From the NCBI GenBank assembly GCA_030549495.1, contig JAUIRK010000011.1, positions 83,868 through 147,867 of the forward strand: 64,000 nucleotides of DNA, written 5' to 3'. Positions 1 through 39,669 of the stretch are shown here, one piece after another. The DNA is from Nectonema munidae. Its lineage: Eukaryota; Nematomorpha; Nectonematoida; Nectonematidae. The notes below the pieces were generated by a model that saw nothing but the letters and a program-made list of their open reading frames with translations, made no database searches and had not been told where the DNA came from. A program made the translations under genes and the position numbers. Position 1 is the stretch's first letter. The number at the start of each line of letters is the position of its first letter.

Positions 1-218
1 TGTCAAATCTACAAATGCAAGATATTCGGTAGACACAAGTTCATCACCTGATCTAGTTGATTCTACTAAAGATCTTTACACCTCGACTCTATCATTTACT
101 CCATCGAGAGACTCCTTCTACGTTTATGCTGTACATGCTAAGGATAGAGAAGTTGCAACTAAAGACGAATTTGAAGATATGGGTCTGAAGACTTTCCAAC
201 TGAACTTAATGACACCAC
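1..218 (+). CDS. Domain exon B0 (3' part, cut by window start)
   Basis: Only the second half of a type-B domain is present. The window opens inside the Val codon before the KSTNARYSV stretch, and the exon ends with ACA CCA C before donor GTAAAA at 219. The residues match B1, B2 and B4 almost throughout; B0 has SPDLVDSTKD where B1 has SRDLEDSTKD. If the donor is ignored, the frame runs on through a hydrophobic stretch (KIILFYFITIV) to a stop at 314-316, with an AATAAA at 346-351. It shows that the A/B array continues upstream of the window. Confidence 0.88.
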
Positions 219-452
219 GTAAAATAATTTTGTTTTATTTTATCACAATCGTGAGTAATTGGCTGCGGTATAAAAATCATCTGCATGAAATTAATGTCAA
301 TTTACACACATTGTAAAATGTCTATAATCGATATAATTAAACTTCAATAAATTTACTAAGATTATCCTCATAATTTGGAATGAAGGTACATACACAAATT
401 TGGACACTTCCGTGCTAAACTTTTGTTAAATTGAAAGAATAATTTATATACA
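219..452 (+). other. Intron after B0, 5' segment
   Basis: Non-coding and AT-rich. It is closely similar to the sequence after B1 (6278-6500) and B4 (23098-23257), so the intron was copied together with the exons. It ends at TATATACA (445-452), the target duplication of the inserted transposon. Confidence 0.8.
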
Positions 453-3260
453 ATTTAGGGGGCAGTAAATTTCTGCTATAAGCTGCACTTTTCAGGCATT
501 TTGAATCTTCATGCAGATTCAAAACGATATGCCAAATTTCAGGCTGATTGGCAAACTTTTAGTCTGCACCATTTTTAAATGAAATATAAATAGTTATCAA
601 ACAGTTAAATTTTTCTTATGTTTTTGTTACAGTTGTTGTGAGAACAATGATTGTTTATTTATTATCATAACTTTTCATTTTTTTATATTTAGTTTAACTA
701 ATTTTTGAAATGGATTCTCAAGTTGCTCTATTGACAAGAGCTGCCATGCAGCATGCATTGCTTGGTTCTTCAAGTGTTCTTCCAATTGGCAAGCTCCCTT
801 CAAAAAGCGATTGCTAAAGAACTGCTGGCATCATAAGTGTGAAAAGGGAAAATTTGCCGATGTCTCAGTGATTATAAAAATAGCTTCTCAAAATTGTTCA
901 GAGATATGGGAAAAAGCAATTGGAGATATAAAAGTGGTCCCACTACGTAGCTAAAAAGTTATTGAGGAAAAATTGAAAAAATTATACCATAGGAGAAAAG
1001 CAAAAAAGCTGCATTTCAAAACGAAATGAAAGAGTTGTTTGACATATGTACATATTTTTGTCCTCTAGATTCTTGTCAAGATGTAAGATACAAAACTAAA
1101 AAATATGATGGATTAAACTGTCCTTGTGATATAAAAGTTCCCAAACAGGAAGTACAGTTCTTACTTGACCAGCGAAGTGAAAGAAAAATGAAGATCGGAA
1201 GCATTGACATTAAGGTAACAAGAATTTGGAAAAAAAGACTGTAAGAGAAACTTTATGAAGAAAGATTAAGCAAGCAGCTTGAGCAGGAAAATAATTTAAA
1301 AAAATGATAAGCGGTGACGCTCTTTGTAAAGAAGATAATTTCGATGATGTAAGTGATATTTCTCCTGACAACCCTGATTATGATTTAGATTTTATACCCC
1401 AACCAAAAGCTCTGACAGACAGCATCTCACAGAACAGAACAAAACTTCCCACACTTGCTCCTACTTGTAACAGATACTTGATTAGAGATTATGCTGGAGC
1501 TGCCATAGCACAATGGCATTATCACAAAGAATGACAAAAGTCAAATTATCAGCTCACATAAAGTGCGATATGAAAGAAAGAAATACCGTCTAAAAATACA
1601 AAAAAGTGAAGAGGCAAGTTTAGAAAACGTAACATCATTGTATTTTGACGATAAAAAGACGGCCACTCGAGTGATGAAAGGAAATGAAAAAACTAAAAAA
1701 TGGAATTTAAAGATAATGGTGAAAGGTCATTATGACATCATGGTTGAGCCTGGCAATGAGTATCTAACAGATATCACACCTGAGTCTGGACATGGAAAAG
1801 AAATTGCCATAAGTATTCATAAATTCTTAGTACAGAAGAATTTAATCCACAACCCAATTGTATGTGTTGGTAGTGATGGTACCAATGCAAATGTTGGCTC
1901 AGAAAACGGAGCTTTTCATAACCTTCAATGTTATTTGGCCGTCCACTTCATTATTTCATCTGTCAGCTTCACGGAAATGAGCTGCCTTTTCGTGCAATTT
2001 TAAATAAATATGATTAAGTGTTCTGCGCATTGGTGTGGTCCGATTGGAAAGCAGATAAAAGAGCCTTTATCTGAGCTGCAAGCAATCAACTTTACTGTTT
2101 TTTCAATCCTGAATGAAGTAATAAAGAAAGATTTGTCTTGGGGTCAAAAATATTTGTATAGAATTTGCAATGGAGTTGTTAGAGGTGTTGTTGATAGTGA
2201 TTTGGCCGCTATCGAGCCAGGTCCTTTATGTGCGTCAAGGTGGAATACTTTATGGAGTAGAATTCTCAGGGTGTATGTAGCTACATCAAGTCCTAGCTAT
2301 GAATTGAAAAGAATTGTTATTGTAATTATAAAGTTTAGTTCACCAATGTGGTTTTTCATAAAGTTCCACAATGATGAAAAGATGCTAATAAAACGATCTG
2401 TTCAGAGAAATGCTTTTTTTGAGCACACAGATCAGCTTTTTCTTAGTATGTGTACAGATAAAGATATAAATGTAAGAAAAAATGCCGTTTCAATGATCAA
2501 AAAAATTAGAAAAAAGAAAAACTGCCTGTGAGAAGAATGTATAGAGAGATTTACTGGTGATAAAGAAGATTCTGCCTGTCATGTTGATGAAGAATTTCCA
2601 AAAAATGCACATAATGAAGAAAAGAGAGAAAAAATTTGAAAGATGATGTGCATTCTGTAATCAACATAAGAAAATTGGTGATACCCAAATTGAAATGGCA
2701 TGCACAAAATTTTTATTCTATGATTAACTGGACAAAAGAACTCAAGACTGAGAGCCCCCTTATATTGCGTCTTTATCAGATCTAAAGATTACTGACATTA
2801 TCACGACCCCATTAGTGGTACCAAAGAGGACAAAACATACTCAGGCTGTAGAAAGAGGAATAAAAGTTATGACTGAAGCTTGCAATGAAGTAGCCGGGTA
2901 TAGAGCAAGAGATGGATGGATATATCAGGCAAAGATTGTTGTCTCGGAAAATGATGCCCCAGTTTCGCACAAAACGGGATCTTACTATTAACTTGAAATA
3001 ATTAAATATTATGCACGTGATTAAAAAAAATAAAATTTAAATAATATATGTATAATTTACTTTTATTCTAAAAAACATTAAGTTATATAAAGTAGTTTAG
3101 CGTAAAACAAATGTTTCTAAAGTATCGATCGCGATGCGGCGGCAGTCTAAAGAGACATAAAACGAGCTGAATTTTTGCAAAAGACTTTTTTTGAGAATAG
3201 AAACAATGCCTGAAAAGTGCATTTTGAAACTCTTATTTTTTTAGTTTTTCACTGCGCTCC
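453..3260 (+). mobile_element. Unclassified DNA transposon with 8-bp TSD (TATATACA)
   Basis: The sister intron after B1 has one TATATACA (6494-6501), as does the one after B4. Here the same 8-mer occurs at 445-452 and again at 3261-3268, with 2.8 kb between. The ends are roughly inverted (GGGGGCAGTAAA near 458; the complement of the right end reads GGAGCGCAGTGAAA). A longer inverted match, TGCACTTTTCAGGCATT at 484-500 against 3205-3221, lies inside. An 8-bp duplication occurs in hAT, P and Zisupton-like superfamilies; I cannot decide between these or another group. A decayed protein-coding region fills the middle. Confidence 0.75.
712..2992 (+). pseudogene. Decayed transposon-encoded protein with SDGTN motif
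   Basis: Three longer open segments (1026-1244, 1563-2003, 2010-2531) and smaller ones in shifting frames look like one broken protein of perhaps 700 residues. Visible pieces are a Cys-containing part (FCPLDSCQDVRYKTKKYDG), a stretch ending RDYAGAAIAQ, a HYDIMVEPGNEYL strand, VCVGSDGTNANVG, the start of a region with LSWGQKYLYRI, and PGPLCASRWNTLWSRILRVYV. The D in SDGTN inside a hydrophobic strand suggests an RNase H-like catalytic core (inference). I associate it from memory with a multicopy uncharacterised family in invertebrate genomes and cannot confirm this here. Several stops and frameshifts make it inactive. It sits between inverted ends with a TSD, so it belongs to the mobile element rather than the host gene. 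Confidence 0.6.
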
Positions 3261-5208
3261 TATATACATATAAATAATAATTGAAGGAACTCGTCAAACA
3301 ACCAAGTGAAAATTACAAAAGCCAATTTTAATTTGTTAAATATAAATAATTTTAAAGATTGATTTATAACTCAACGGAGACTGAAAAACATTTGTAATTA
3401 AATACCTAAAAGTTCTTCAACTTGATAAAGACTCGTGAAGACGAAATTTCATTTTATTTAAATAAATTTGTTTGAAACTTTACTCTTTTTGTTTAAAATA
3501 TAAATACATGCAATAAGTAACAATAAAATGAAATGAACTAAATTGTTAATCTATGGACCTTTTATTTTATATCTCTTTAGCTTCACTATATCTTCTCGGT
3601 ATTCTTAATGGACATATAATAAAGGATTGAATCAAAACAGAACGGGTGCAAAAGCCAAAACTATGGAGAAATTAAATAAATTTGCAATAAACTTATACTG
3701 CGTTTCTTAATACCTTGTTAATTATTATTCGCTCTTTCATTTTGCTCATTAATTATTTTATTTAATTTCTCTTCTCTTCAAAATTTTAATTTTTAATTGA
3801 TCTAAATTTGTATACTTGATTTAAACTGGCGAATTTTTATTATAATTATACTTCGCTAAAATGGAATTTAGTGAATTGTATCTAATAAAGTTATTATCCA
3901 AATAGTTTTGTAGATTTTAAATTAGAAAAATTATAATTGGAAATATGGTGTTTAAATTTTTAGAAATGATAAAAGTCAGAAATAAATAGTATGACACTAA
4001 TGAAAATGTTTTGAGCACAATGAAACAAAAAGAACCAACATTCTAAAGAAAAATTTATAAGAAAAAATGGGAATGGGACATGGCGCGGAATTTTTTTGAG
4101 CTGAAATTATAATTTACCAAATTTGTGCATTCACTGTAACAATTTTTAAGTAAAACATACAAATACCGAACTTCCATAGCTCATTTGTTATTTTTCAAAC
4201 AAACGACATTTTATACCCTCTCACTTTGGTAAAAGATTGAATCTAAAAAACGAGTTGCAGAAATCATCATAATATTTGAGTTCTACCAAAAGAATTAGAT
4301 CAAGAAAAATTTTCAAGCAATTGGCAATGCAATTTTAGGGGAGGGGGGGGCGTAGGCCGGTTCCACCCCCTTTAAATCCTCTAGTGTATTAAAACAATGT
4401 ACTACTTCCACGTTGAGGTGTACTTTTTTGCTGTACACTATGTTAAACTTAGAAAGTTTTAGAATCGTTATAATACATTACTAGCGGTTAAAAAGCAAGA
4501 AGTAGTCTCTATAATAAAATGATAGGCTAAAATTGGGAGAGAACGTAAAAATCACTTCGCATCTTTAAATTTTTTAAATCAAAATTTGATAATATATAGG
4601 GCATTATCGTGCTTTTGAAGACATTTTTAAAATTCCAAAGGGTTTTAAAACAAACCCTTATATGTTAATAACTCTGAATATGATTAATAGTTTAACCAAG
4701 GCATTATGTATTAAATAAAAGTCAAAGACATTTTGCAAATGTTTTTTAAATTTTTTGTAACAGGTCTCATTTAATTTTAGGGGGGGGGGGGCGTACGTCG
4801 GCTCCGCCCCCTCTAAATCCGCCTATTTTACTTACCTGATAGGTTAAATTAAGTAAATTAAAAATTAAGTAAATAATAAGTAATATTAAGTAAATATAAA
4901 TATTTACTTAATGATAACTTAATATGTGGTGCATGATTATGTACAATATTCCAATGTTGTTTCTTATAATAATATCTTCATAAATCGCTCGTAATTTTCA
5001 TTATCTGAAAATAATAATTTTAACTTAATTTTTTTGAAAAATATTTTAAATTTCTTAATGGTTATATTAATCTCTAATTCATACAAATTTTTGCCTCCGA
5101 AAGCGCAATATTTCAGAAAAATATGGACCACTACAACTATAATTTTTAATATACAACTAAAATTTCATGAATTCAATTAATAATTCGATGTTTTATTAAT
5201 TTCTATAG
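3261..5208 (+). other. Remainder of B0-A1 intron
   Basis: No gene seen. 3261-3550 matches the introns at 6494-6693, 8995-9100 and 23245-23530. 3655-4215 matches 9105-9165 plus 12001-12530. 4916-5208 matches 12560-12847 just before exon A2. These matches show that the whole intron was duplicated as part of the A/B unit. The piece from about 4216 to 4915 has no counterpart in the A2 intron and is treated separately. Confidence 0.75.
4216..4915. mobile_element. Intron-specific insertion with two G-run hairpin motifs
   Basis: About 700 bp present before A1 but absent from the matching intron before A2 (around 12530-12560). It carries two direct copies of one motif, at 4332-4382 and 4774-4822: AATTTTAGGGG, a run of G, CGTA, GCCGG/GTCGG, then a CCCCC block and CTCTAAATCC. 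Each can fold G-run against C-run. The ends are not defined and no ORF is present. It may be a fragment of a non-autonomous repeat; family unknown. Confidence 0.4.
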
Positions 5209-5574
5209 AAATGCCATCTTGTGAGTTAAGTGACGGAGATATGGACGAAGAAGAAGTTTCAATAACTCGTGAAGAAAGATTGACTCTCACATTCGTTGCC
5301 AAATGCGAACGAGTACTAGACGCTACATTCGTTCCTCATTTTGTAGTGGAAAATGAAGTTGTCAAAAGAAGCAACGACAAATATACGGTACAAATTGGAG
5401 TTGAAACAGAACTAGACGATCCAAATAAAGTGATCGTTACATCGAGCATAATCTTTGTTGTTCCCTTTGAAGAACAAGACATCGTTGTCAGCTTAGGCTT
5501 TGAAGATAATGAAATGGATTTATCTGCCGTTAGAGGAAATGCATTGAAGACCTTCCATTTGACTCAAGATACAG
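5209..5574 (+). CDS. Domain exon A1
   Basis: Acceptor TTTCTATAG ends at 5208; the exon opens AA ATG CCA TCT TGT, so the ATG is an internal Met and not a start. It closes ACA G before donor GTTACT. Spliced from a B exon the junction codon is CAA (Gln). The domain has 122 codons: Cys in PSCELSDGD, an acidic loop (DMDEEEVS), strand LTLTFVAKC with the second Cys, PHFVVENEVVKRS, KYTVQIGVE, VTSSIIFVVPFE, and the final strand NALKTFHLTQ. By hand it differs from A2 at about ten residues, with about six silent changes. Between B0 and B1 in the array; no known function. Confidence 0.9.
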
Positions 5575-5917: not shown

Positions 5918-6277
5918 ATATTTGTGAATTAGTTCTGGGTGATGGAAGTGATGCAAATGTCATGTTTAGAAGGGGACAGAGAGTGACACTGAATGTTGTA
6001 TCTAAATGCGTTCGTGGAGATTCACACTATGTTCCATACTTCTTTGTAGAAAGCGAGGTTGTCAAATCTACAAATGCAAGATATTCGGTAGACACAAGTT
6101 CATCACGTGATCTAGAAGATTCCACAAAAGATCTTTACACCTCGACTCTATCATTTACTCCATCGAGAGACTCCTTCTACGTTTATGCTGTACATGCTAA
6201 GGATAGAGAAGTTGCTACTAAAGACGAATTTGAAGATATGGGTCTGAAGACTTTCCAACTGAACTTAATGACCCCAC
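5918..6277 (+). CDS. Domain exon B1
   Basis: Acceptor TTTTTCAG ends at 5917. The exon opens AT ATT TGT GAA (junction codon GAT, Asp, after an A exon) and ends ACC CCA C before GTAAAA. 120 codons: first Cys in DICELVLGDG, RRGQRVTLNVVSKC with the second Cys, HYVPYFFVESEVVKS, ARYSVDTSSS, LYTSTLSFTPSRDSFYVYA, and the last strand GLKTFQLNL. The GQRVTLNV and TLSFTPS strands look like Ig B and E strands, but there is no F-strand Cys. Read-through would add a hydrophobic tail with a stop at 6370-6372, followed by AATAAA at 6402-6407. Confidence 0.9.
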
Positions 6278-6693: not shown

Positions 6694-8994
6694 CCCTCAT
6701 CCGTACAAGCTGCTACAATTTGTAGTTAATAAAATTTCAATCTACACGCGTTAGCTACATATAAATGTTTTGAAGCGAATAATCCTTGACGATGTGTATT
6801 TGTGTATAGTGAACATGCACACACTATTTTATTCCATGATCTATTACCTAATTCGTAAATTTTCTGTTTTTTTCTTTATAGTACAACGTAATATAATTTG
6901 TAGTATAGGCGAATCACTGTCGATACGTATTTATGTATAGTGGATCAGTGTTTTCATTCATAAATTTATTGTCTGGCGCCAAAACAGGAAATTACCTCTT
7001 AAAAGCAGTAAGCTTCTATCTTCATCTTTTTTGTAATACACAATTCATTCAATTTCCTTGCTTCTCACACTGTTTTGACTTGTTTTTCTTAATTTATTAG
7101 AGATACCATTTCACACATTTTGCTATTTTTTCTTTCTTTTCAATGAAAAAATATCAAAGGTCATCGTTTCAATTGGCACGTGCTTTAATTTCTCTTTGTG
7201 ATGAATCGGATGATAATGATGATGATGGTGATGATGAAAGAAGCAATTTGGAAAAAACTGATGAAAATGTTTGTGAAGAAGTTATTGAAGAATCGTCTGA
7301 ATCTTTGGAAAATAATGTGGAAATAGAAACGAACAAAGGTGATATTGACATGTTTGAAGACAACATCTCAGATGATGATAGTCTGAGTGATGTAATTGAA
7401 GACGATGAACCCTGTACTACCGCCAATAGCTTTTTCATGAACGAATTTGACGATGAAGAGTTTATTTTTTATAATGACCTCAAGTATTCAAAAAGACAAC
7501 GCCTGGTTATATCTTTATCAAGAAATATTTTGAATCAAAAGCATATGTGATCCCAGAATCGAAGCTGAATCTTTTTTCCTTTTTTACAAGGAAGACATGT
7601 TTCTTCATATTACAAGATACACTAATAGAAAAGTTTCTGATGAAGTTAGGAAGTATTTAGTCAAAAATAAAAGAAAAACTTATCCTATTTTCATGAAACA
7701 ATATTCTTGTGAACAAATAAAAGCTTGCTATGGTATTATAATTAGGGCAGCTTCTGATAGAGACAACATGACTTGTTTGGTTTCTTTATTATCTCCAAAT
7801 GACTCAAAACCATTTTACAAAGCTACAATTGGGTTTCAAACATTCAAAATTTTTTTACACTGTCTTCGATTTGACAACTTCAGAGAGAGGGAAACAGTGA
7901 GAAGATCAGATAAGCTTGCAGCTGTCAGTGAAATATGGACAATGTTACAGAAAAATTTATTGGCTTTCAGGATACATTTTTCGGGAAAAGAAATTGGCAA
8001 AGATAAAAACACAGAACGAGCTTCTACAACAGTTTTACGGTTAGTCAAACCATTTGAAAATAGTGGCAGAGATATAATAACTGACAGGTATTTCACTTCT
8101 CACTTCTTGGCTACAGAACTTTTAAAGAAAAACTTGACGCTATTTGGAACAATTAATAAAAGAAGAAAAGAAATTCCTGCTTTCTTAAAATCAGCCAAAA
8201 ACCAAGACGCCCATACAACCTTAGCCTTGTATGATCATGAAAACAAAATCTTCCTATGCTAATATGTTCCCAAAAAAATAAAAATGTGTTGATGTTGTTC
8301 TCTTCTCATTTGTTATTTAAATATCAGAGAGGTTAGATAAAAAACCTCGTATAATTTTGAACTACAATCAAGGTAAGTATGGAGTTGATTTGCTTGATTT
8401 TATAATTGAAGAGTTTTCTTGTCGAAGAAAAACCAACAGATGGCCAGTTCTCTTAAACTATAACTTTATTGATGTAGCATGGAGTAATGCATTTATTTTA
8501 ATGAAGAAAAATGATTATCCCAAAACCGAAGAACTTTTTTGAAAAACCTATCTTTTCAACGTGCGTTAGAATTCTCAAGTAAAAGACTTCAAAGTCAAAG
8601 TTTATGGAAAATTATAAAAGAGGCAGGAATATTTGTCGGATATATAAAAACAACTCCCGCACCTTCTAAAAGAAAAGTAATAAATTATTCCAGGCCTTGT
8701 AAATATTGTAAAAAGTAATGTGGGAGTGCTTGTGAAATTTGTGACGCTGCAATTTGTTCCAGTCATAGAATCAAGAAAACTACAGAGTTTTGTATTTTTT
8801 GTGAAAAATAGACAATACATTTATAATTTCATTGAATAAAACTTTGTACAACTTTATGTGATATATATATTTACAAAAATACAAAAAAATGTATATTCAT
8901 AAATCTCAACCTTAATAAGTTTATGAATTTGCTATATTACAAAATGTAACATCTTGTACAGAACTGTGTCCAGTTTATAGTGTACGGATGAGGG
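6694..8994 (+). mobile_element. piggyBac transposon with perfect 14-bp TIRs
   Basis: CCCTCATCCGTACA at 6694-6707 and its exact complement TGTACGGATGAGGG at 8981-8994 bound a 2.3-kb element. CCC-type termini are typical of piggyBac. The intron sequence stops at ...TTTCATTTTATT on the left and resumes TTTTAAATATATTTGTTTG on the right. Sister introns at about 3450-3475 and 23437-23462 read straight through a TTTAAA in the same context, giving two empty sites. The TTAA duplication itself is no longer intact on the left. Subterminal copies of a TGTATAGTG-ending repeat lie near 6790-6820 and 6920-6945. A decayed transposase is inside. Confidence 0.9.
7143..8810 (+). pseudogene. piggyBac transposase, decayed
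   Basis: The order of parts fits the DDE_Tnp_1_7 family. It opens with an acidic N-terminus (7143-7550, rich in D/E/S). Next is the segment with HITRYTNRK (7597 on), then a block with FQTFKIFLHCLRFDN. The strand ending DIITDRYFTSHFLATELLKK carries one expected catalytic Asp, and FGTINKRRKEIP follows. After a gap come YNQGKYGVDLLD and a C-terminal Cys-rich tail (8695-8810: C-x2-C, C-x2-C, CIFC) like the piggyBac RING/PHD-type end. Frameshifts, a deletion before the DRYFTS strand and a stop in the Cys-rich tail make it inactive. It lies between perfect TIRs. Family assignment is from recognised motifs, not a search. Confidence 0.88.
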
Positions 8995-12847: not shown

Positions 12848-13213
12848 AAATGCCAACTTGTGAGTTAAGTGACGGAGACATGGACGAAGAAGATGTTTCA
12901 ATAACTCGTGAAGAAAGATTGACTCTCACATTCGTTGCCAAATGCGAACGAGTACTAGACGCTACATTCCTTCCTCATTTTGTAGTCCAAAATGAAGTTG
13001 TCAAAAGAAGCAACGATAAATATACAGTACAAATTGGAGTTGAAACAGATCTAGACGCTCCTAATAAAGTGATCGTTACATCGAGCATAATCTTTGTTGT
13101 TCCCTTTGAAGATCAAGACATCGTTGCGAGCTTAGGCTTTGCAGATAATGAAATGGATTCATCTGCCGTTAGAGGAAATGCATTGAAGACCTTCCATTTG
13201 ACTCAAGATACAG
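12848..13213 (+). CDS. Domain exon A2
   Basis: Acceptor TTTCTATAG ends at 12847; the exon opens AA ATG CCA ACT TGT and ends ACA G before GTTACT. 122 codons in the A pattern: TCELSDGDM, LTLTFVAKC, LPHFVVQNEVVKRSND, VETDLDAPNK, IIFVVPFEDQDIVASLGFADN, ALKTFHLTQ. Against A1 it has Leu for Val before PHFVV and Gln for Glu in VVQNE, both shared with A3, but keeps the SND variant shared with A1 and A5. That mosaic suggests exchange among A copies. Confidence 0.9.
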
Positions 13214-13653: not shown

Positions 13654-14013
13654 ATATTTGTGAATTAGTTCTGGGGGATGGAAGTGATGCAAACGTCATG
13701 TTTAGAAGAGGACAGAGAGTGACACTGAACGTTGTATCGAAATGCGTTCGTGGAGATTCACACTATGTCCCATACTTCTTTGTAGAAAGCGAGGTTGTCA
13801 AATCTACAAATGCAAGATATTCGGTAGACACAAGTTCATCACCTGATCTTGATGATTCCACCAAAGATCTTTACACCTCGACTCTATCATTTACTCCATC
13901 GAGAGACTCCTTCTACGTTTATGTTGTACATGCTAAGGATAGAGAAGTTGCTACTAAAGACGAATTTGAAGATATGGGTCTGAAGACTTTCCAACTGAAC
14001 TTAATGACACCGC
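13654..14013 (+). CDS. Domain exon B2
   Basis: Acceptor TTTTTCAG ends at 13653; opens AT ATT TGT GAA and ends ACA CCG C before GTAAAA. 120 codons in the B pattern: ICELVLGDGSDANVMF, GQRVTLNVVSKC, YVPYFFVESEVVKST, SSPDLDDSTKD, STLSFTPSRDSFYVYVVHA, LKTFQLNLM. It is closest to B4 (both SPDLDDS); the YVYVV variant (YVYAV elsewhere) is unique. Read-through ends within 20 codons of the donor, with no AATAAA nearby. Confidence 0.9.
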
Positions 14014-16755: not shown

Positions 16756-17121
16756 AAATGCCAACTTGTGAGTTAAGTAACGAAGATATGGACGAAGAAG
16801 ATGTTTCAATAACTCGCGAAGAAAGATTGACTCTCACATTCGTTGCCAAATGTGAACGAGTACGAGACGCTACATTCCTTCCTCATTTTGTAGTCCAAAA
16901 TGAAGTTGTCAAAAGAAGCAAAGGCAAATATACGGTACAAATTGGAGTTGTACCAGAACGAAGCGATCTTAATAAAGTGATCGTTACATCGAGCATAATC
17001 TTTGTTGTTCCCTTTGAAGATCAAGACATCGTTGCCAGCTTAGGCTTTGGAGATAATGAAATGGATTTATCTGCCGTTAGAGGAAATGCATTGAAGACCT
17101 TCCATTTAACTCAAGATACAG
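16756..17121 (+). CDS. Domain exon A3
   Basis: Acceptor TTTCTATAG ends at 16755; opens AA ATG CCA ACT TGT and ends ACA G before GTTACT. A-type domain with the most changed loop: KYTVQIGVVPERSDLNK where the others have VETDLDDPNK-like text. It carries R (VRDAT), L (FLPHF), Q (VVQNE) and KG (RSKGK). The two Cys and all strand residues are kept. The following intron was hit by a LINE, but the donor is intact. Confidence 0.9.
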
Positions 17122-17285: not shown

Positions 17286-20200
17286 ATGTGCTAACTGCAA
17301 ATCTCATGGGCTTGAAAATGTGAGTCATCCGCAATGGATTTTAATTGTCATATTGTTAAAAAAGAAATTAATAGAGTTACATTGAATCTTAATTTAAGGT
17401 TTTCGTCTAATGCTGAATTTTCATTTTTCATGATAACTTAAAATCTACTTCTTTTTACTTGCAAAGAGCTATGCCTCAGTCTGAAATACTCGATTCAACC
17501 TGTTGTTCTTTTAGAAGCATTAATGATATCCAGATTTTAATAACTTTGCCATACTTAGCCTGAACGTACAATCTTTGAATAATAAGTTAAGTTTACTTGA
17601 GATCTTTCCCAATGGACTGTATGAAAATACCATCACAAAATTGATGTTCTTTGCTTAGAAGAATGTTGGTTCAAAGATTTTTGTTCTTATCACATGGATG
17701 ATTACATTTTTCTGTATTACGTCGGTGGGCTATCATTACAGAGCGGATTAGCGTTCTTTGTCAATAAAAAACTAGATTATGAAATTGTTAAAAAATTTTC
17801 TTCTCCAGAAAGTTTTGAACATTTTGCAATTGAATTGTTTCCCGGAAACCAACAATTTCTGACCATAAACAATTTTTACCGGGCTCCACATAAATATCTT
17901 CAAACATAGACTTCTTTCTTTCTTATATTGACTACCTTTTGTTTAATTGCAAAGCATCGAGCACTAATATTCTTCTTGGTGACTTCAATTTAGACATCTT
18001 TCAGAAAAACAGCTTTATTGTCAACTTTGTGAACACGGTTTATTCTAATAATTTTAAAGTTTCTATTTCATCACAGACTTGTCTCAGTTCTGGGACATGT
18101 ATTGATAATTTTCTCCTTCCACATTATTTAAAAGAATATAAAACTGGTGTTTTCAACACTTGCATCTCTGACCATTTACCTACTCAGCCTAGAAAGTGTA
18201 CATTCATCCAATCGTGAAAAATCTCGTTTTCTTTTGAAAAGCTTTTTCTTGAAATTTTTTTGCCCTTGATTGGAATCGTCTTATGAATAGGAATTGCAAT
18301 GAACCTGAGTGTCTTTTAGAATCTATAAACTGTTCCCTTTCAGAAATAATAAGATCTTCAGACAAGCAAACCTATGTTAATTCCAGTAAAAAGTTTAGAC
18401 AAAAACAAAAAAGTTGGATGACGAATGAGGTTTTATTTTTAATTAATAAAAGAGATAAAAATTTTCCAAAAGGAAGAAGAACAATACTGATATTTCTACC
18501 ACCACTACTTTCAAAAAATTACGAAATTACATTAAAAACAAGATAATTTATTTGAAAAAAGAGCATTACAAACTTTAATTTTCGCAAAGTATGAACTCCA
18601 AAAATACATGGTCAGTACTTAACTCGGTTATTAAAAATCGCAAAAAATCCTGTAACTTCATTGTTATAAATGATCAAACTTTTTCTTTTATACAATTTCT
18701 AATAAACTAAATGAATTCTTCACAGATGCTGATACTTCTGAAATTACTGATTCGTTCTATGATAACTTGAATATTGAAAGTAATGCTTTAATTCCACCTC
18801 CATTTTTGTGAACCTATTTCAAGTTGAAAAGGCAATTGAAAAACTTAGTCAAAGCAAATCGTGCGATGCGTACGGTATCAATATTCACCATATTAAACTT
18901 GTAAAAGCCAGCTTCTCGTTCATTCTGTCTTTTTGTTTCAATAGATGTTTAGAACATTCCATTTTCCAAAAAGGCTAGCAACGCTGAAATTACTAATTTT
19001 AGACCAATATCTATCATTCCTATGATCTCGAAGATCTTTGAAAAGACTCTTTATTCTTTAGTCGTACCTTTTTTTGAAAACATTGCTTTCCAACAACCAG
19101 TTTGCTTTCAGGAAAGCTTTTTCAACTGAGTTTGTCAACACCTATTTTCTAGACAAAGTTATTTCGCACCTGGAACAAAAGAAGGACGTTGGCGTAGTTT
19201 TCTTAGAAATATCAAAAGCGTTTGACAGCCTCTCGCATAAACGTTTCCTATTGAAACTCCATAAATATGGTTTTAATAGCAAAGCACGGAACTTTTTCGA
19301 TTCATATTTGAAAAACGGAAAACAATTCGTTCAGTTTAATGGCAATGACTCACAAATTCTTCCTCTTTCCAAAAATATGTCACAAGGCTCTTTTCTGGGG
19401 CCAATATTTTTCATAGTTTATATGAACGATTTGATCAGAACTTCTAAGTTTTTGACTACTTAGTCTACGCAGATGACGTAACTCTTCTTTTCCGTCCCCT
19501 TTCATATAAAAATCTCTCCTTTTCTGAGAATTTTTTTCAAGTTAAACGATGGTTCGCTTACAATAACTTGACAATAAATAAATTTAAAACTAAAGCCATG
19601 ATTATTTCTTCAAGTTCTCAACCTGCTTTATCTTTCTTTCAAAAAGAAAACCTTGATGTTGTGACGGAATTTGATCTCCTTGGTTTACGTATTGATAGTA
19701 AATTGAATTTCTATAGCCACATTCTAATCTTTCAATGAAACTCAGTAAAATCATAGGTATTTTAAAATATTATAGAAAGTATTTTCCTCTTTATGTCAAA
19801 TTGCTTTTATTCTTGCCTCAGATTTCTTACAGTTTGATAAATTTTGGACATGCAAACTTGCATTCTCTTCAAGTTTTGTACAAAAAAGCAATAAGAAATG
19901 TTGCCGGTACAAGCAAATATTTTCATTCTAACAACTTGTTTGTGGAATATGATCTTCTTAAACTCAAAGATCTCTTCTCCCAAATAAGTGGACTATTTCT
20001 CATTTCTTCATTTAATGCGACGCATGGACTTTTTCTGAACCTCATTACGTACAAACAGAAAGACTCTTATTCTTTTCGCTGCCCACTCTCATTGAACAAA
20101 CCAAATTTCAGGTTAGCACTTTCAAAACTGTCCATAAGATACAAAGTTGTCGATTTTTATGAATGTCATAAAAGTTTAATTGGTGAAAGCTGTTGCTCGA

Positions 20201-20725: not shown

Positions 20726-21085
20726 ATATTTGTGAATTAGTTCTGGGGGATGGAAGTGAGGCAAACGTCATGTTTAGAAGAGGACAGAGAGTGACACTGA
20801 ATGTTGTATCTAAATGCGTTCGTGGAGATTCACACTATGTTCCATACTTCTTTGTAGAAAGCGAGGTTGTCAAATCTACAAATGCAAGATATTCGGTAGA
20901 CACAATTTCATCACGTGATCTAGAAGATTCCACAAAAGATCTTTACACCTCGACTCTATCATTTACTCCATCGAGAGACTCCTTCTACGTTTATGCTGTA
21001 CATGCTAAAAATAGAGAAGTTGCTACTAAAGACGAATTTGAAGATATGGGTCTGAAGATTTTCCAACTGAACTTACTGACACCAC
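20726..21085 (+). CDS. Domain exon B3
   Basis: Acceptor TTTTTCAG ends at 20725; opens AT ATT TGT GAA and ends ACA CCA C before donor GTGAAA (GTAAAA in the other B exons). 120 codons: LGDGSEANVMF, GQRVTLNVVSKC, YFFVESEVVKST, VDTISSRDLEDS, STLSFTPSRDSFYVYAVHAKN, GLKIFQLNLL. It carries several private changes (E for D, I for S, N for D, I for T) but no disabling one. Intact despite the LINE just upstream. Confidence 0.9.
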
Positions 21086-22030: not shown

Positions 22031-22396
22031 AAATGCCAACTTGTGAGTTAAGTGACGGAGATATGGAAGAAGAAGAAGTTTCAATAGCTCGTGAAGAAAG
22101 ATTGACTCTCACATTCGTTGCCAAATGTGAAAGAGTACAAGACGCTACATTCGTTCCTCATTTTGTAGTCGAAAATGAAGTTGTCAAAAGAAGCAAAGGC
22201 AAATATACGGTACAAATTGGAGTTGAAACAGATCTAGACGATCCTAATAAAGTGATCGTTACATCGAGCATAATCTTTGTTGTTCCCTTTGAAGATCAAG
22301 ACATCGTTGCCAGCTTAGGCTTTGCAGATAATGAAATGGATTCATCTGCCGTTAGAGGAAATGCACTGAAGACCTTCCATTTGACTCAAGATACAG
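22031..22396 (+). CDS. Domain exon A4
   Basis: Acceptor TTTCTATAG ends at 22030; opens AA ATG CCA ACT TGT and ends ACA G before GTTACT. 122 codons: TCELSDGDMEEEEVSIARE, LTLTFVAKC, ERVQDATFVPHFVVENE, RSKGKYTVQIGVETDLDDPNK, FEDQDIVASLGFADNEMDS, LKTFHLTQ. It combines Val/Glu (as in A1) with KG (as in A3), another sign of reshuffling between copies. Confidence 0.9.
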
Positions 22397-22737: not shown

Positions 22738-23097
22738 ATATTTGTGAATTAGTTCTGGGGGATGGAAGTGATGCAAAGGTCATGTTTAGAAGAGGACAGA
22801 GAGTGACACTGAACGTTGTATCGAAATGCGTTCGTGGAGATTCACACTATGTTCCATACTTCTTTGTAGAAAGCGAGGTTGTCAAATCTACAAATGCAAG
22901 ATATTCGGTAGACACAAGTTCATCACCTGATCTTGATGATTCCACGAAAGATCTTTACACCTCGACTCTATCATTTACTCCATCGAGAGACTCCTTCTAC
23001 GTTTATGCTGTACATGCTAAGGATAGAGAAGTTGCTACTAAAGACGAATTTGAAGATATGGGTCTGAAGACTTTCCAACTGAACTTAATGACAGCAC
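22738..23097 (+). CDS. Domain exon B4
   Basis: Acceptor TTTTTCAG ends at 22737; opens AT ATT TGT GAA and ends ACA GCA C before GTAAAA. 120 codons: LGDGSDAKVMF, GQRVTLNVVSKC, YFFVESEVVKST, SSPDLDDSTKD, TLSFTPSRDSFYVYAVHAKD, LKTFQLNLM. The read-through tail seen after B0 and B1 is shortened here by a deletion (stop at 23136-23138) and the AATAAA is lost. Last B copy of the array. Confidence 0.9.
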
Positions 23098-23836: not shown

Positions 23837-24202
23837 AAATGCCAACTTGTGAGTTAAGTGACGGAGATATGGACGAAGAAGAAATTTCAATAACTCGTGA
23901 AGAAAGATTGACTCTCACATTCGTTGCCAAATGTGAAAGAGTACGAGACGCTACATTCGTTCCTCATTTTGTAGTCCAAAATGAAGTTGTCAAAAGAAGC
24001 AACGATAAATATACGGTACAAATTGGAGTTGAAACAGATCTAGACGATCCTAATAAAGTGATCGTTACATCGAGCATAATCTTCGTTGTTCCCTTTGAAG
24101 ATCAAGACATCGTTGCGAGCTTAGGCTTTGAAGATAATGAAATGGATTTATCTGCCGTTAGAGGAAATGCATTGAAGACCTTCCATTTGACTCAGAATAC
24201 AG
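23837..24202 (+). CDS. Domain exon A5 (last A copy)
   Basis: Acceptor TTTCTATAG ends at 23836; opens AA ATG CCA ACT TGT and ends ACA G before GTTACT. 122 codons: TCELSDGDMDEEEIS, LTLTFVAKC, ERVRDATFVPHFVVQNE, RSNDKYTVQIGVETDLDDPNK, FEDQDIVASLGFEDNEMDL, ALKTFHLTQNT. The next exon is type C, not B, so the tandem array ends here and the read-through frame beyond the donor is no longer the GYSFP-stop seen after A1-A4. Confidence 0.9.
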
Positions 24203-25090: not shown

Positions 25091-25444
25091 AAGGCTGCTT
25101 CCTTGATTCTGATGGGCCAATGGGGCAAATGGCATTAAAGGGTTTGTACAACGCATACACAACGCTTAAGCTGGAGACACGGTGTCGAAAATTTGACGCC
25201 AATCTTTTGAAAAATTATGTTGTCGTGAATGATGTTCTCCAAACTAATTCACTTCATTCTGAATTACACGTTGAATCTACAATCTCTAATGTAATTGACA
25301 ATGAGTTCACAAACAGACTGACCGTCACCGTTTTAGTCATAGAAAGTTCAAATATATATCTTTTACCAGCTAAAGAGTCACCCGATATAACTGTTGATTT
25401 TGTGAAGCAACATGCACTAATGCACTATCTCATAACGCCAACAA
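25091..25444 (+). CDS. Domain exon C
   Basis: Acceptor TTACTTTTAG ends at 25090; opens AA GGC TGC TTC and ends CCA ACA A before GTAAGA. Phase 1 at both ends, like the A and B exons. 118 codons: first Cys in EGCFLDSDG, second in LKLETRC (28 residues between), then NYVVVNDVLQTN, SELHVES, RLTVTVLVIESSNIYLLPA, and QHALMHYLITP as last strand. Divergent from A and B but position-for-position the same domain. The apparent ATG ORF beginning at 25039 includes intron; the acceptor decides the start. Confidence 0.85.
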
Positions 25445-26949: not shown

Positions 26950-26955
26950 GCATAA

Positions 26956-28314
26956 ATGTGTGAAAAAAAGTTAAAAAGAAATGAGCTAAGTTTGGGAGAA
27001 AAAATTGAATTGTTGAAAGATTCGACTGGCAGAAGTCAAAGGCAGTTGGCAGAAAAATTCAATGTAAGCAAAACCTAAGTCCTATCTATTTTGAAGCGTA
27101 AAAATATAATCATGAGTTCAAATACATCAATGAATAGGAAAAGAGTTTCAACATCCTCGAACTTTGAAGATATAGATGAGCTAGCTTGGCAATGGTTCCA
27201 GAAAGCCAGAAGTATACATGTGCCTATATCTGGACCAATGATACAAGAACAGGCACTTATTTTTGCTGAAAAACTGGGTAAACATGATTTTAAAGCATCA
27301 CAGGGTTGGTTGAATAGATTTAAAAACAGGCATTCAATAAAATTTGGAGCAATTTGTGGCGAAAAAGGATCCGTAGATATGGAATCCGTAGAAGAATGGA
27401 AGGTGAAAGTTGTAGAATTGATTAAAAATTATAAATATGAGGATATCTAAATATGGATGAGACGGGCTTATTTTACAGATGCTTACCTGATAAAACTTTG
27501 AAAGTGAAAGGGGAGCAGTGTATAGGTGGAAAAAAATCGAAGAATAGAATCACAGTCTCGCTTTGCGTTAATATGAATGGTCAATTTGAAAAACCACTCA
27601 TCATTGGACACAACAAAAAGCCTCGTTGTTTTAAAAATGTTAATGTTGATAAGCTCAACTTTAAATCGTCATACAACAAAAAAGCTTGGATGACTTCAAG
27701 CGTTTTCAGCGAATTGTTGAAAACCTTTAATCATAAACTTCGACGTCAAAAACTTTTCTCTTTTTAGATAATGCACCATCTCACACCAAAATTGAAATGA
27801 CGAACATCAAATTAGTTTTCTTGCCAGTCAACACCACTTCTGTTCTTCAACCACTCGATCAAGGAATAATCCAGTTTATCAAAACAACATGTCGAAAACA
27901 ACTTTTACGGCACATTTTGTTGAAGATCGATTCTGCGGAAGATGCTTCGAACATGAGTAAGTTGGTTAATGTGTTACAAGCTTGTAACTGGATTACACAT
28001 GCAGTTTCAAAATGTAAACAGTCTACTGTTCAAAAATGCTTTCAAAAGAGTGGATTTCATTTTGATGAAATAACCAGTGAAGAAGAAACTGAAAACTATC
28101 ATTCACTGAATGGACTGATAGACGAAGTGACAAGTAGGTTAAATATAACTAACAAAATGACAGCTGATCTGTATAGCTCAATAGATGAAGATGTAGAGAC
28201 GTCAGAAAAGCTCTCTGAGGGTTGGGAAGAAAGAATGGTGAATGAATATCTTTGAAGCAGATAAAAATGAAAGTGATGATGAAGAAGATAAGGAGGAAGA
28301 AACGGTTTAGTCTG
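26956..28314 (+). pseudogene. Tigger/pogo transposase, decayed
   Basis: Parts in order: N-terminal helix-turn-helix (SLGEKIELLKDS, SQRQLAEKFNVSKT) with a stop at the next codon; a CENP-B type DNA-binding domain (WFQKARSIHVPISGPMIQEQ, ASQGWLNRFKNRH); then the DDE catalytic core with NMDETGLFYR (first Asp), ITVSLCVNMNGQFEKPLIIG, LDNAPSHTK (second Asp, after a frameshift near 27750), VFLPVNTTSVLQPLDQGIIQ (third Asp), and an acidic C-terminus. The catalytic Asp residues survive, but stops near 27077 and 27448 and the frameshift abolish function. This is the JRK/TIGD-type family (established knowledge). Confidence 0.92.
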
Positions 28315-28350
28315 GCATTAGCTCAAATGAAGCGTTACATATGATTATCT

Positions 28351-31104: not shown

Positions 31105-31449
31105 CTTTGTGTAAGAAGCTTCCAGAAAGAAATAGAGCAGAATACGTTCTTTTAAAAGGACAAAGTGTCAGCATTACAATGAAAGCTTCTTGCCCGAATG
31201 ATCCTGATCTTGAACTTGAACCTTTCTGGGATATAAATCAAGAAATGATCGCTGTTGGTGATCCTAGTTATACATTCACTTCGTCGGAAGAAGTTGAAGA
31301 AGGAAGAATGATTAAAAGTTTCACAATATCCTTTATTCCTCAAGCACCACTGTCCAACTTGTTTGCTCTAGTCAGTGAACCGCATGAAGGAATCAACAAA
31401 TGGTACGTAGCTACTAATGCAATTCGAAAAGCATCAATCAAACTTTCAG
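31105..31449 (+). CDS. Domain exon D
   Basis: Acceptor TTTTTTTAG ends at 31104; opens CT TTG TGT AAG and ends CTT TCA G before GTACAT; phase 1 at both ends. 115 codons: first Cys in LCKKLPERN, then LLKGQSVSITMKASC with the second Cys (26 between), LEPFWDINQEMIAVGD (an Ig-like Trp-containing strand C), SFTISFIPQAPLSNLFALV, and AIRKASIKLS as last strand. The KGQSVSITM and FTISFIP strands align with GQRVTLNV and TLSFTPS of type B. Confidence 0.85.
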
Positions 31450-33098: not shown

Positions 33099-33446
33099 TT
33101 CTTTGCACTTCATCAGAGCCTTCTGATCCAATTCAAATTAATGCGTTGAGAGAAAAAGCTTTAACACTTACTTTCACCTCCCAGTGTGAAGATGTCAACT
33201 CAAAGCGTGTTCGTGAATACGTCATGGTGAATGGGGAAATGCATACCAAGAAATCTCCCTTTTTTCAGAAATTCAAATTTAAGATTCATAGTACACAACC
33301 ACTCTCATTTTCGAGAGAGGTCACAATCAAATTTACTCCATCAGAAGACACAGATCTCCGGCTCATGACACATGAAAGAAATCGTAGAATAGACCTCTCA
33401 TATCTACAGACTCATGCACCTTTCCATGTCAACGTTCAACTAGCAA
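33099..33446 (+). CDS. Domain exon E
   Basis: Acceptor, a long T tract then TTTAG, ends at 33098; opens TT CTT TGC ACT and ends CTA GCA A before GTTTGC (a weaker donor). Phase 1 at both ends. 116 codons: first Cys in LCTSSEPSD, REKALTLTFTSQC with the second (26 between), VREYVMVNGEMHTKK, FKFKIHST, REVTIKFTPSEDTDLRLMTHE, QTHAPFHVNVQLA. The open frame extends into the intron on both sides, but the splice sites fit the shared pattern. Confidence 0.84.
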
Positions 33447-34695: not shown

Positions 34696-35052
34696 AGACT
34701 TGTACAGAAGAAGCGGACAATAAGAGACGTTCTGTTGAAAAGTTTTTAGTTGGTGAACTTGTGAAAATTGAAGTTGGCGCGGAGTGTTCTTCAGAAATTA
34801 CAACCGCAATCACGTACTTTTCAATCAACGATCAACTCGTGAGTAGAGCGATTCCTTCATCCACATTTCAAACTTCGGTGGAAAGAACTGAGATTCCTGA
34901 TTCCGATCAGTTCAGACTTTCAACCCTCCTCTCTTTTACCCCGATAGAAGATGAATACGACGTTTTTGCAACCACGATGGAGAGCAGTCATGAAATTGAT
35001 GCGTCCTACGTTAGAACCCATTTTCACAAAAGAGTTAATCTGGAGAAGGCAG
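34696..35052 (+). CDS. Domain exon F
   Basis: Acceptor AATTTTTAG ends at 34695; opens AG ACT TGT ACA and ends AAG GCA G before GTATCC. Phase 1 at both ends. 119 codons: first Cys in TCTEEADNK, LVGELVKIEVGAEC with the second (27 between), ITYFSINDQLVSRA, TFQTSVERT, LSTLLSFTPIEDEYDVFATT, THFHKRVNLEKA. LLSFTPIED matches the B-type LSFTPSRD strand closely. An ATG-only ORF call would miss the first 22 codons with the first Cys. Confidence 0.86.
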
Positions 35053-35599: not shown

Positions 35600-35764
35600 A
35601 CAGGGCTGGTGGGCTGATAGGTAGAGGCGTTGCCTATGGATCCAAAGCCTTTGGGTTCGAATCCCGCCGATGCCATCGACTTATTATAAAAATTTCATCA
35701 GTGCAGATATGGAAGTTTATACTTCCCTTGCATGAAACACCCTGTCAAAAAAAAAAAAAAAAAA
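35600..35764 (+). mobile_element. tRNA-derived SINE with poly-A tail (family 2)
   Basis: tRNA-like head GGTGGGCTGATAGGTAGAGG with perfect box B GGTTCGAATCC (35654-35664) and an acceptor-like CCGATGCCA. The tail reads CTTCCCTTGCATGAAACACC, followed by about 18 A. Imperfect direct repeats AACTGTTAAC / AACTGTGAAC flank it. The tail resembles that of the family-1 SINEs (TGAAACACCC-like), suggesting a shared LINE partner. Confidence 0.85.
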
Positions 35765-35962
35765 CTGTGAACAATATTCATACAATATATCAATACAACT
35801 TATTTAAATATATTTTATATGTTCTATTATTTAATGAAACATCAGCTTAGATATAGTATTTTCAATTGTTGCAAAAATATGCCTGATACAATTTTACAGA
35901 ATGTTTTTATGAAGAGAATAGAGGATCAGCTTATATAAAATGAAGAAAATTTCACTTATGTT

Positions 35963-36056
35963 TGTGTGTGTGAGCGGCCGTGTGTGTATCTGTGTGTGTG
36001 AGCGGCCGTGTGTGTATCTGTGTGTGTGAGCGGCCGTGTGTGTATCTGTGTGTGTG
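35963..36056. repeat. 28-bp GT-rich minisatellite
   Basis: GAGCGGCCGTGTGTGTATCT followed by GTGTGTGT, with GCGGCC at 35974, 36002 and 36030, exactly 28 bp apart; about 3.3 units, nearly identical. Confidence 0.9.
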
Positions 36057-37252
36057 GCTCTGTGGGTTTTGTATTTGCATATGTAGGTAGTCAGTCTTTA
36101 GAAAAGTTGAATGCAATGCAATAGCCGCGTAAACAACATGAGCAAAATTTAATGCTTTTTTAAATAAAACTGTTTCATATTAATTTTACTTTATAAACAA
36201 ATAAGAATTACGTTAATTTTCATCAGTGCTATGCCATGAGTCCTCTCCCCAAAGGAATTCTCTGCGACAGCCATTTATGCATGTCTAACTGTAAAAGCAT
36301 TTGTGTAGTTGACATATTTTGGTCCTGTGTTTTCAAGTCTTACAATATATTTTGCATAAAAATGTTAACATCATATTAAGAATTTCAACTTTTTCCTAAT
36401 TCCAAAGGCATAAAAATCTGACCTGATTTGGCAAAATTAATGGCATTTTGGAATCAGCACGCAAAATACATAAAGAATTAGCTAAGAAACCCCGCACCTT
36501 ATGATTTTTTTTCAAATGCACCCCAATGTAATTGTTAAGAAAGAACTAATGGTAAAAAACTAAATACATGAAACGACGAAAACATCTGTAATCATATATC
36601 TTTTGAACCAATGTCATTGTTTTGAAAAAGGAACATTCTAATTAAACTAAGTTAGTTAATCTTTTTTCACTTTTATTAGCACTATCACTAACGGCTAAAG
36701 ACTGAACTCTCTTAAATAACGTTTGTATGCTTCATGAATAATATACTAAACACAGAAGCAATACGGTTCTTGAAACATTATGGTTTGTTCTTTGCTGAAA
36801 GTCTATGTCCAATAAAAAATAATATTAAATATGATTTCATATCTATGATTTTGTTTTTTCAAATAAACAGTGAATCTAGTTAATTTTATAGAAAATTTTA
36901 CATGCATATTTGTAAGCCAATGTTAAAAGCATGTATTCAATTTTTACGGGTTTAAGATATCTGGATGCATAGTTTTCGTGTTACGGGTTCGGATATTGAT
37001 GCTTACCTGCTTTAAGATTCACAATGTAACAAAAATTTGTTTCATTCAATTTCTTTATGTCTTTTATATAATTCAATGATGGTAAGTTCTTTGCAATTAA
37101 TTATTTTATTTCATCTTCAATATTTTTTACATGATTCTATACTTTGTGTTTTGCAGCTTTTTAGATAATAATTGGAGTTTTTTAAACTTTTAAAAGTTGT
37201 TTTTACTTACGCATATCATAGTTTTGTTTTTTGAAACATTTAAGATTGAAAA

Positions 37253-38943
37253 ATGTCAAAAAAAACATGTAAAATAGATCTCGATCATTTGCTATGTCTG
37301 TGGCGAGTATATTAATTCTAAACAAGTCAAATTTAACATATCCTCAAACAAGTTACTTTGTTGAATATAAAAAATATTTCAGCATTTCCATTGGTGACCA
37401 GGACAAATCTTGGGCACCACATGTGATTTGCGGATCTTGCAAGTCACTTTTGGAAGGCTGGTTAAGAGGAATGAGAAAGTCTATGCCGTTAGCTGTTCCA
37501 AGAGTATGGAGGGAACCTACCAATCATTTAAATGATTGCTATTTTTGTATGGTTGATCTTAATTTGTATAAAAAGCTCACAGACAAGAAAAAACTTGTTT
37601 ATCCGAACATTCCTTGTTCTTTAGCTCCTATTTTACATAGTATAGAGCTACCAATTCCATCTTTACCACAAACTTCTGCAACTGATGAAGAGGATGATGA
37701 TGATGTCAATAATGAAGAGACTTGGATACCAACACAAATACAATTCATTGAAAGTCAACATCACTTTCCAAACCAGGATGAACTCAATGATTAGTGAAGG
37801 ATTTGAATTTGACTAAATCATCTTCAGAGCTTTTAGCTTCTCGATTGAAGGAATGGAATTTGTTATCTCCAGGAGTGAAAATTTCAAAGTATAGGCATAG
37901 ACACAAAGACTTTTCACGTTTTTATTCTATGTCTAATACTCTGTGTTTTGTTCAAATATTTCAGGTTTGTTTGAAGAAATTGGAGTATCTCATCTTTCCA
38001 ACCAATGGCGTTTATTTATTGATTCGTCCTTAAAAAGTTTGAAAGCAGTTTTGCTTCATAACGGTAACAAATATCCCTCAATACCTATCGGTCATTCCTC
38101 ACAACTTAAAGAAAGTTATGAAAATTTGAAAATTTTTACTTGAATTGATAAAATATGAAAAGTATAATTGGGATATTTGCGGAGATTTCAAAATAATTGT
38201 TTTGCTTTTGGGAATGCAGGGTGGATATACAAAGTGTCCTTGTTTCCTTTGTTTATGGAACAGTAGGGAGAAAGAAAAACATTAAACAGAAAATGTCTGG
38301 CCGAAAAGAACATATTTTAAAATTGGGTGTCATAACGTCAAGTTTACTCCACTGTTACAGAAAGAAAAAGTCCTTTTACCACCACTCCATATCAAACTTA
38401 GCTTGGCTAAACAATTCATCACGGCTTTGTCTTCTGACAGTCAGGTGATATGTGAGTTGAGACGAATCTTTCCAAAAGTTTCTGAAGCAAAGTTAAACGT
38501 CGGTATATTTAATGGTCCTCAAATTAAAAAATGCTCAATTCGAAAATTTTTGAAAGTCAGAAGACGAAAAATGAGAAAAAAGAATGGATGGCATTCAGAA
38601 ATGTTGTTGAGGGGTTCTTAGGGAAAAATAAGTCTGAAATCTTCAAGGAATTGATTTCGGAACTGATTAAAAGTTACAAAGAGTTGAATTGTAGAATGTC
38701 AATTAAAATGCATAATTCGCATTCTCATTTGGATTTTTTCAAGCCAAATCTTGGAGATGTATCGGAAGAGTATGGAGAGCGGTTTCACCAAGATATTAAA
38801 GAGATGGAAAAGCGGTATCAAGGAAGATGGGATGCAAGTATGATGGGAGATTACGTTTGGAATTTAACTCGGCAAAGTTCAGATGATAACAAGCGAAAGA
38901 GACGAACTAATACACGATTTGGATTTTTTTTTGTATTTTTCTA
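37253..38943 (+). pseudogene. Decayed transposon-like gene with DQDKSWAPH motif
   Basis: A broken protein of about 550 residues. It opens with MSKKTCKIDLDHL, then after a frameshift GDQDKSWAPHVICGSCKSLL, a Cys/His N-terminal domain (C-x2-C, later CYFCMVDLN). An acidic linker (EEDDDDVNNEE) and SSSELLASRLKEWNLL lead to WRLFIDSSLKSLKAVLLHNG, PSIPIGHSSQLKESYENLK, PLHIKLAWLNNSS-like text in shifting frames, NVGIFNGPQIKK, GFLGKNKSEIF, MHNSHSHLDFF and EEYGERFHQDIKEMEKRYQG near the end. I recall this as a multicopy uncharacterised family in invertebrate and cnidarian genomes, probably transposon-derived (from memory, not verified). RLFID and GERFHQD may hold acidic catalytic residues. At least five frameshifts; no terminal repeats identified. 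Confidence 0.65.
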
Positions 38944-39318
38944 AAAAATAAACATTTGAAAAAATAAAAAATTCAAATATAAACTTTAAATAAACATTTA
39001 TAAAATCATTTAGTCACACATGTATATACAAATATATATGTATATGCAATTTATTCAATTTGAAAAAAATATGAAAACTTATAGCAGTGCAAAAATAAAG
39101 CAGATTTTCAGAATCAGCATGGCTTAAATGCTAGAAAAACAAAAGAAAACTTTTTGAAACAAAATTTTTTTATTTTTTTGTTACACGTACTGAAAAATAT
39201 AGACCACTACCAAAAGTAATATTCTCTAACTTGACCTTTTAATTTTAAGCATATTTTACAATATTTATATCACTTTTCTATACTTATGCTAATAGAAATT
39301 CTTGTTTTTTGTATCTAG

Positions 39319-39669
39319 TTATTTGTCGAGCAATGGAGAGAGAAACTAATGACGAGGAATATCCAAGCAAATTCGTAACTGCAAGGAAAGTTGTTTTGAA
39401 TGTTTTTGCCATATGTGGAGCAGAGAATCTGAAGTACAAAGCTTATGCAGTTGTCAATAACAGACTTGCCCAAAAAAGCGATGTATTCCGAATGCGTTTG
39501 TACACGGAGACAGAGTCAAACGGCTTTGCAGTGAGACGAGCTAAACTCACATTGAAACCGTCGGAAGAGTCAACAGATGTCAAGATTTTGATTCATGAAA
39601 CAAATAAAAAGATAAATAAAAACTTTGTAATCAAGCAGTATATAAAGCGATTCACACTTATCAAGTCCA
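39319..39669 (+). CDS. Domain exon G (last one seen)
   Basis: Acceptor TTTGTATCTAG ends at 39318; opens TT ATT TGT CGA and ends AAG TCC A before GTAAGC, a strong donor. Phase 1 at both ends. 117 codons: first Cys in VICRAMERE, TARKVVLNVFAIC with the second (29 between), YKAYAVVNNRLAQKS, RMRLYTET, RAKLTLKPSEESTDVKILIHE, QYIKRFTLIKS. If the donor is not used, the frame continues 24 residues through a hydrophobic run (LFLQFITTLISFYLLA) to a stop at 39744-39746, which could act as a short membrane or GPI-type tail; this is speculative. Confidence 0.85.

Follow-up and report, generated by a model that had tools for sequence, protein, structure and literature searches.

Layout of the domain exons on contig C11

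The stretch analysed here is a 64,000-nucleotide window of the Nectonema munidae genome (contig JAUIRK010000011.1, hereafter C11; window position 1 is C11:83868). It contains the 3' part of what is probably a ~73 kb gene (C11:50293 to about 123.8 kb), in which exons of two types, A and B, alternate in a tandem array and are followed by divergent exons C to G. The window covers C11:83868-147867 and reaches the end of the contig (the assembly is 211.6 Mb in 748 contigs). A preliminary description had pointed to ten alternating exons in 24 kb and then five divergent exons of one domain. We located all of them, and both BLAST and hidden Markov model (HMM) searches linked them. Plain BLAST connects the exon types (A to B at E = 6e-18, F to D at 3e-6, E to C at 4e-5). 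An HMM seeded with the window's seven domain types and then iterated over retrieved contig pieces matches the window exons at E-values of 6.1e-19 to 4.6e-44, which are partly circular because the same exons feed the model. The iterated HMM returned hits to 59 stretches, some being halves of a single exon; 34 lie on C11, where 34 exons encode copies of one ~113-residue domain.

These exons fall into two groups. The first runs X1, B', a1 to a6 (32.7-41.4 kb) and the second X2, A', B1, A1, B2, A2 and so on to A9, B10, C, D, E, F, G (50.4-123.5 kb). Short exons for hydrophobic leaders, recognised by eye, lie upstream of X1 and X2 (MFSCKLIVNLVTFILLFSKLN and MFSYNNLILSVCAFILLFSRLS; C11:32559 and C11:50293), each with a phase 1 donor and a TATA-like box ~42 bases 5' of the ATG. 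Given two leader exons with TATA-like boxes, C11 probably holds two genes, the second carrying the array, the alternative being one gene with two promoters. The second gene is X2-A'-B1-(A-B)x9-C-D-E-F-G, or 26 domains, of which the last 15 are inside the window and the first of these is cut by its edge. The preliminary description of the array holds for the part inside the window but not for its start: the first window exon is A5, the array extends ~28.6 kb further upstream (B1 at C11:55267) and the gene ~33.6 kb, to its leader exon. That putative leader exon suggests that the product of the array gene is extracellular, as had been proposed. At the other end, G has a good donor (GTAAGC). Its unspliced read-through gives a hydrophobic tail and a stop ahead of an AATAAA (Table 1), a possible, putative C-terminal anchor; the tail is also open, with one residue changed, in a related copy on another contig (C624, below). 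A search for 3' exons by hydrophobic frames in contig C748, which carries further relatives, gave nothing firm.

Within the limits chosen, all 34 C11 domain exons are open and have lengths that are multiples of three, and splice dinucleotides were found in 34/34. The initial splice search covered phase 1 only and was repeated across all three phases with a generic splice-site matrix. With all phases scored, the best donor is phase 1 in 34/34 exons and the best acceptor in 33/34. The exception is D, for which phase 0 is best in the range scanned and a phase 1 site also exists. The phase 1 junctions of the preliminary description are thus borne out, but its consensus splice sites are not: the array donors are weak, GTTACT in B exons and GTAAAA or close in A exons. 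A G at donor position +5 occurs in none of the 19 array exons versus 13 of the 15 other C11 domain exons, a contrast that is only suggestive because the array exons are copies of two ancestral exons and so are not independent. Since the exons are symmetric and phase 1, copies can be gained, lost or fused with the frame intact.

Predicted fold and cysteine pattern of the domain

AlphaFold2 models of domain A (A6) and of D are immunoglobulin (Ig) sandwiches, with predicted local distance difference test scores (pLDDT) of 85 and 87; Ig had been among the folds put forward for checking. The structure matches listed for the two models are, to judge by their titles, chains of the Ig superfamily, among them LRIG3, SYG-2, titin and Dscam (Z 9.7 for A, 9.1 for D). 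The beta-sandwich by which the superfamily is recognised is thus present in the predicted models. As in I-set and V-set domains, it extends across the whole domain and the domains stand in tandem; unlike them, the domain has no sequence match in Pfam or PDB, lacks a Cys in strand F and has a short predicted helix before the last strand. Both cysteines are invariant in 14/14 full window domains, so the two-Cys character first noted holds, and in the C11 domain family as a whole Cys29 is invariant and Cys1 almost invariant. No Cys occurs in strand F (about 84-92 in A6) of 30 aligned domains, which excludes the canonical B-F disulfide. In its place, a bond between Cys1 and Cys29 would link the N-terminal segment with the end of strand B.

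Homology searches agree with the preliminary description, which recognised no named family in the domain. In Pfam, neither seven domains (searched to E 10) nor 30 domains (to E 1) nor the seven-domain product brought any Ig profile near its cut-off, and the seven-domain piece had no fibronectin III or Ig match. The nearest Ig-type row was ICAM_N, found with D alone at E 0.21-0.22 and 11.7 bits against a cut-off of 21. The 30-domain alignment found no relative in Pfam, in PDB or, at E 0.001, in a large protein set, nor did the seven-domain product in that protein set at the same threshold. The protein-set search requires shared 5-residue words and similar length; its null result carries some weight because the set holds nr and UniRef arthropod records. 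We also found no description of this domain family in searches of open-access papers. Judged from the predicted models and these searches, the domain appears to be an uncatalogued Ig-like family with a noncanonical cysteine pattern.

Growth, constraint and exchange in the array

Mean nucleotide identity is 96.0% among the nine A copies and 95.1% among the ten B copies, whereas other family members are divergent. The ratio of nonsynonymous to synonymous differences (dN/dS, as a ratio of means) is 0.18 for A over 36 pairs and 0.33 for B over 45 pairs. Flanking introns differ more than the exons they border, by 0.21 and 0.27 versus 0.04 for A and by 0.10 and 0.17 versus 0.05 for B. Taken together, the low ratios and the greater intron difference make the array copies look constrained, and the label of a fast-evolving protein therefore does not fit the array. 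A dN/dS of 1.07 for a1-a6 (15 pairs) was dropped, as equal-length pairs had been compared ungapped and were misaligned (minimum identity 0.27).

The preliminary description had also proposed that a two-exon unit was duplicated with its introns, and the data agree. The five short introns between a B exon and the next A differ by 2-7% when aligned, and distances among A copies track those among the preceding B copies (Mantel r 0.48, p 0.037) and not the following ones (r -0.09, p 0.61), so that the duplicated unit is most likely B-intron-A. In a four-gamete test on B2-B10, 140 of 253 informative-site pairs fail, whereas 200 simulations without recombination gave 7.5% on average and 40% at most; B1 is shorter by three bases and was excluded from this and from the fourfold counts below. 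The test thus gives good support to exchange among the B copies, which look mosaic, and less to exchange among the A copies. The array may have grown by duplication of the B-intron-A unit, accompanied by unequal exchange and conversion. Table 1 lists the exons in the window.

Table 1. Exons of the array-bearing gene inside the window (window coordinates).
Feature	Position	Strand	Basis or remark
Exon A5, 3' part	1..218	+	last 218 bases; whole exon C11:83726-84085
Domain exon B6, class 1-1	5209..5574	+	HMM and exon limits
Domain exon A6	5918..6277	+	AlphaFold2 model of the domain is an Ig sandwich
Domain exon B7	12848..13213	+	HMM and exon limits
Domain exon A7	13654..14013	+	HMM and exon limits
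Domain exon B8	16756..17121	+	HMM and exon limits
Domain exon A8	20726..21085	+	HMM and exon limits
Domain exon B9	22031..22396	+	HMM and exon limits
Domain exon A9	22738..23097	+	HMM and exon limits
Domain exon B10, last of the array	23837..24202	+	HMM and exon limits
Divergent domain exon C	25091..25444	+	HMM; colinear in C624
Divergent domain exon D	31105..31449	+	AlphaFold2 model is an Ig sandwich
Divergent domain exon E	33099..33446	+	weak donor GTTTGC
Divergent domain exon F	34696..35052	+	HMM and exon limits
Divergent domain exon G	39319..39669	+	HMM; 99% identical in C624
Putative read-through of G into a hydrophobic tail and a stop	39670..39746	+	AATAAA at 39962; possible C-terminal anchor

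The introns of the array gene hold pieces of a transposase (DDE_Tnp_1_7; window 7534-8262), a Tc5/DDE_1 transposase (27079-28255) and a reverse transcriptase (19062-19463). Beyond the gene, the minus strand carries an element of the long interspersed nuclear element (LINE) type (window 57469-61554). Its long frame encodes reverse transcriptase and endonuclease, a frame with cysteine-rich motifs overlaps this one upstream, and another frame lies downstream. A perfect (AC)n run of 363 bases lies at window 61787-62149. An interspersed many-copy repeat occurs at C11:26548-29264, several copies of which are found no more than 4 kb from the start of a contig (C77, C240, C666 and C723).

Relatives in the genome and the nature of the gene

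A related copy, at C624:5177-27397 on the minus strand, is a compact X-B-C-D-E-F-G in the same order as on C11, with one stop in B. Its X matches C11 X1 at 98.2% identity and its G matches C11 G at 99.1%, whereas it differs from C11 by 5.0-6.8% at B10, C, E and F and by 4.7%, with gaps, at D. The B exon is marginally nearer B4 (95.6%) than B10 (95.1%), and its flanks align best at B10. This copy looks like C11 minus the region between X1 and about B10, as though a fusion had joined the 5' end of gene 1 with the 3' half of gene 2. In the 27.4-48 kb of C624 beyond the gene, only one 1.3-kb segment matches C11; it lies after G on C11 and before X on C624, with its orientation unchanged, and is near full length only there (among the 40 scored of 72 candidates). 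This placement suggests that C11 and C624 are tandem gene copies. A separate question is whether they are instead haplotypes of one locus, in which case 26 against 7 domains would be a large copy-number polymorphism and would not distinguish paralogs. Colinearity from X to G and the near-identity of X and G would fit, and both haplotypes are apparently retained elsewhere in the assembly, as C121 and C157 are 98.8% identical over 2,785 bases and look like such a pair. However, the differences at B10 and C to F exceed those of this likely allelic pair, and the position of the 1.3-kb segment is better explained by tandem copies, so that we regard the haplotype explanation as rather doubtful. Two C11 flank pieces tried as a test of it both proved to be repeats and were rejected.

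More members occur on C380, C405, C98, C734, C121 and C157, with weaker matches on C606 and C697, at the least. C748 carries domain sets of at least 4, 4, 3 and 3 (at 93-103 kb, 186-196 kb, 206-216 kb and 229-239 kb) in the order first-CVLH-CDIQ/CSIQ-CEI/CQF, the first domain being visible in 2/4 pieces. Two of these sets, ~20 kb apart and in like orientation, are 98-99% identical over aligned stretches, and one has a split CVLH exon. At C734:302188-303042 a single open frame holds two domain copies, compared with one exon per domain on C11. Apart from the family, C107:2133-3401 carries a COX1 that is highly divergent, uses TGA for Trp and has repeats on its flanks; its best matches listed are in arthropods, and it is ~47% identical to the best-scoring arthropod proteins (45-52% to the arthropod records among the 120 matches listed of 7,998 scored). 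Taken by itself, this COX1 would point to an arthropod or a rapidly evolving relative, and its divergence is too great for a group to be named.

Titin-like proteins consist of concatenated Ig domains with repeating super-units, and in this respect resemble the gene described here; the leader-like exons seen by eye speak against an intracellular product, however, and the domain is of an unmatched Ig-like type. Hydractinia Alr likewise forms an invertebrate cluster of unusual Ig-superfamily genes, which a Botryllus review also mentions (PMC12065747); the COX1 of the present assembly, in contrast, is arthropod-like. The nearest published layout that we found is that of chelicerate sDscam, with tandem promoter-linked Ig cassettes (PMC4835542). 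Dscam and sDscam share with our gene tandemly duplicated exons for Ig domains and, probably, more than one promoter (PMC4835542 and PMC3236188). They differ in that our exons each encode a complete domain and alternate between two types, the copies are near-identical, B copies exchange sequence and the seven-domain piece lacks fibronectin III or Ig matches in Pfam. The kind of gene layout is already known, and what is new is the domain variant and the homogenised two-exon array. Of the undescribed system first suspected, the uncatalogued Ig-like domain family stands, while the tandem-domain gene is of a familiar kind.

Overall, this is a real, tandemly expanded gene, apparently constrained, of an uncatalogued Ig-like family. 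We consider it fairly likely that it encodes a secreted or membrane-anchored rod with a signal peptide followed by 26 or more concatenated Ig-like domains, each from one class 1-1 exon, grown by duplication of a B-A unit with exchange. One transcript would then join the array and the divergent exons. Several observations weigh against this. The four-gamete signal is weaker among A1-A9, where 14 of 36 pairs fail, a level that 2 of 200 simulations attain. In the five units whose intron is short, Nei-Gojobori (NG86) dS (0.04-0.19) tends to lie above the intron difference (0.02-0.07), a pattern not accounted for by plain duplication; over all pairs, fourfold sites differ by 0.107 in A and 0.057 in B2-B10. 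The structural Z scores are modestly above the 7-8 that VIA gives as typical of the best score without a clear match, and Foldseek has no match at E <=0.001 (best 2.6e-3). Finally, the weak array donors could mean regulated inclusion.

This last point leads to an alternative that we think unlikely, in which the array is a Dscam-like bank of alternative cassettes with one or few B-A pairs per transcript, giving isoforms that differ in length or sequence. Any subset of the symmetric exons would keep the frame, the missing +5 G sets the array donors apart, and the leader exon and TATA-like box at each of X1 and X2 recall the promoter-linked sDscam cassettes (PMC4835542). Yet near-identical copies (0.960 for A, 0.951 for B) that exchange sequence among B exons are poor material for isoform diversity, and two alternating exon types are unlike the layout of one mutually exclusive cluster. 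Moreover, for the Dscam arrays studied in Daphnia and Drosophila the authors of PMC3236188 report no evidence of gene conversion and suggest selection against it, in contrast to the homogenised copies here. That the array is instead a non-functional by-product of recent local duplication, or a decaying locus, we hold to be very improbable: within the limits used, all 34 C11 exons read free of stops and frame shifts, all have splice dinucleotides, and dN/dS is low in both A and B, even though there are transposon pieces within introns, a stop in the B exon of the C624 copy and a split exon in a C748 copy.

If the gene does encode an Ig-domain rod, the leader exon, the fold and the repetition suggest that its product would be a long modular protein in adhesion or recognition. 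More speculatively, and with little probability in our estimate, the family could be a hitherto undescribed, lineage-specific cluster of Ig-like receptors or adhesins in an arthropod-like animal, in which B-A pair number varies between individuals, conversion and regulated inclusion of weak-donor exons yielding a recognition pool varied in length and sequence. The array offers a readable natural case of a protein lengthening by whole one-exon domains, with the unit, the phase rule and the traces of exchange visible in the DNA. With its apparent Ig fold, altered cysteine pattern and lack of a catalogued relative, the domain would add to the Ig-like families that sequence searches miss. Should array length differ between individuals, it would provide a testable recognition or adhesion polymorphism.
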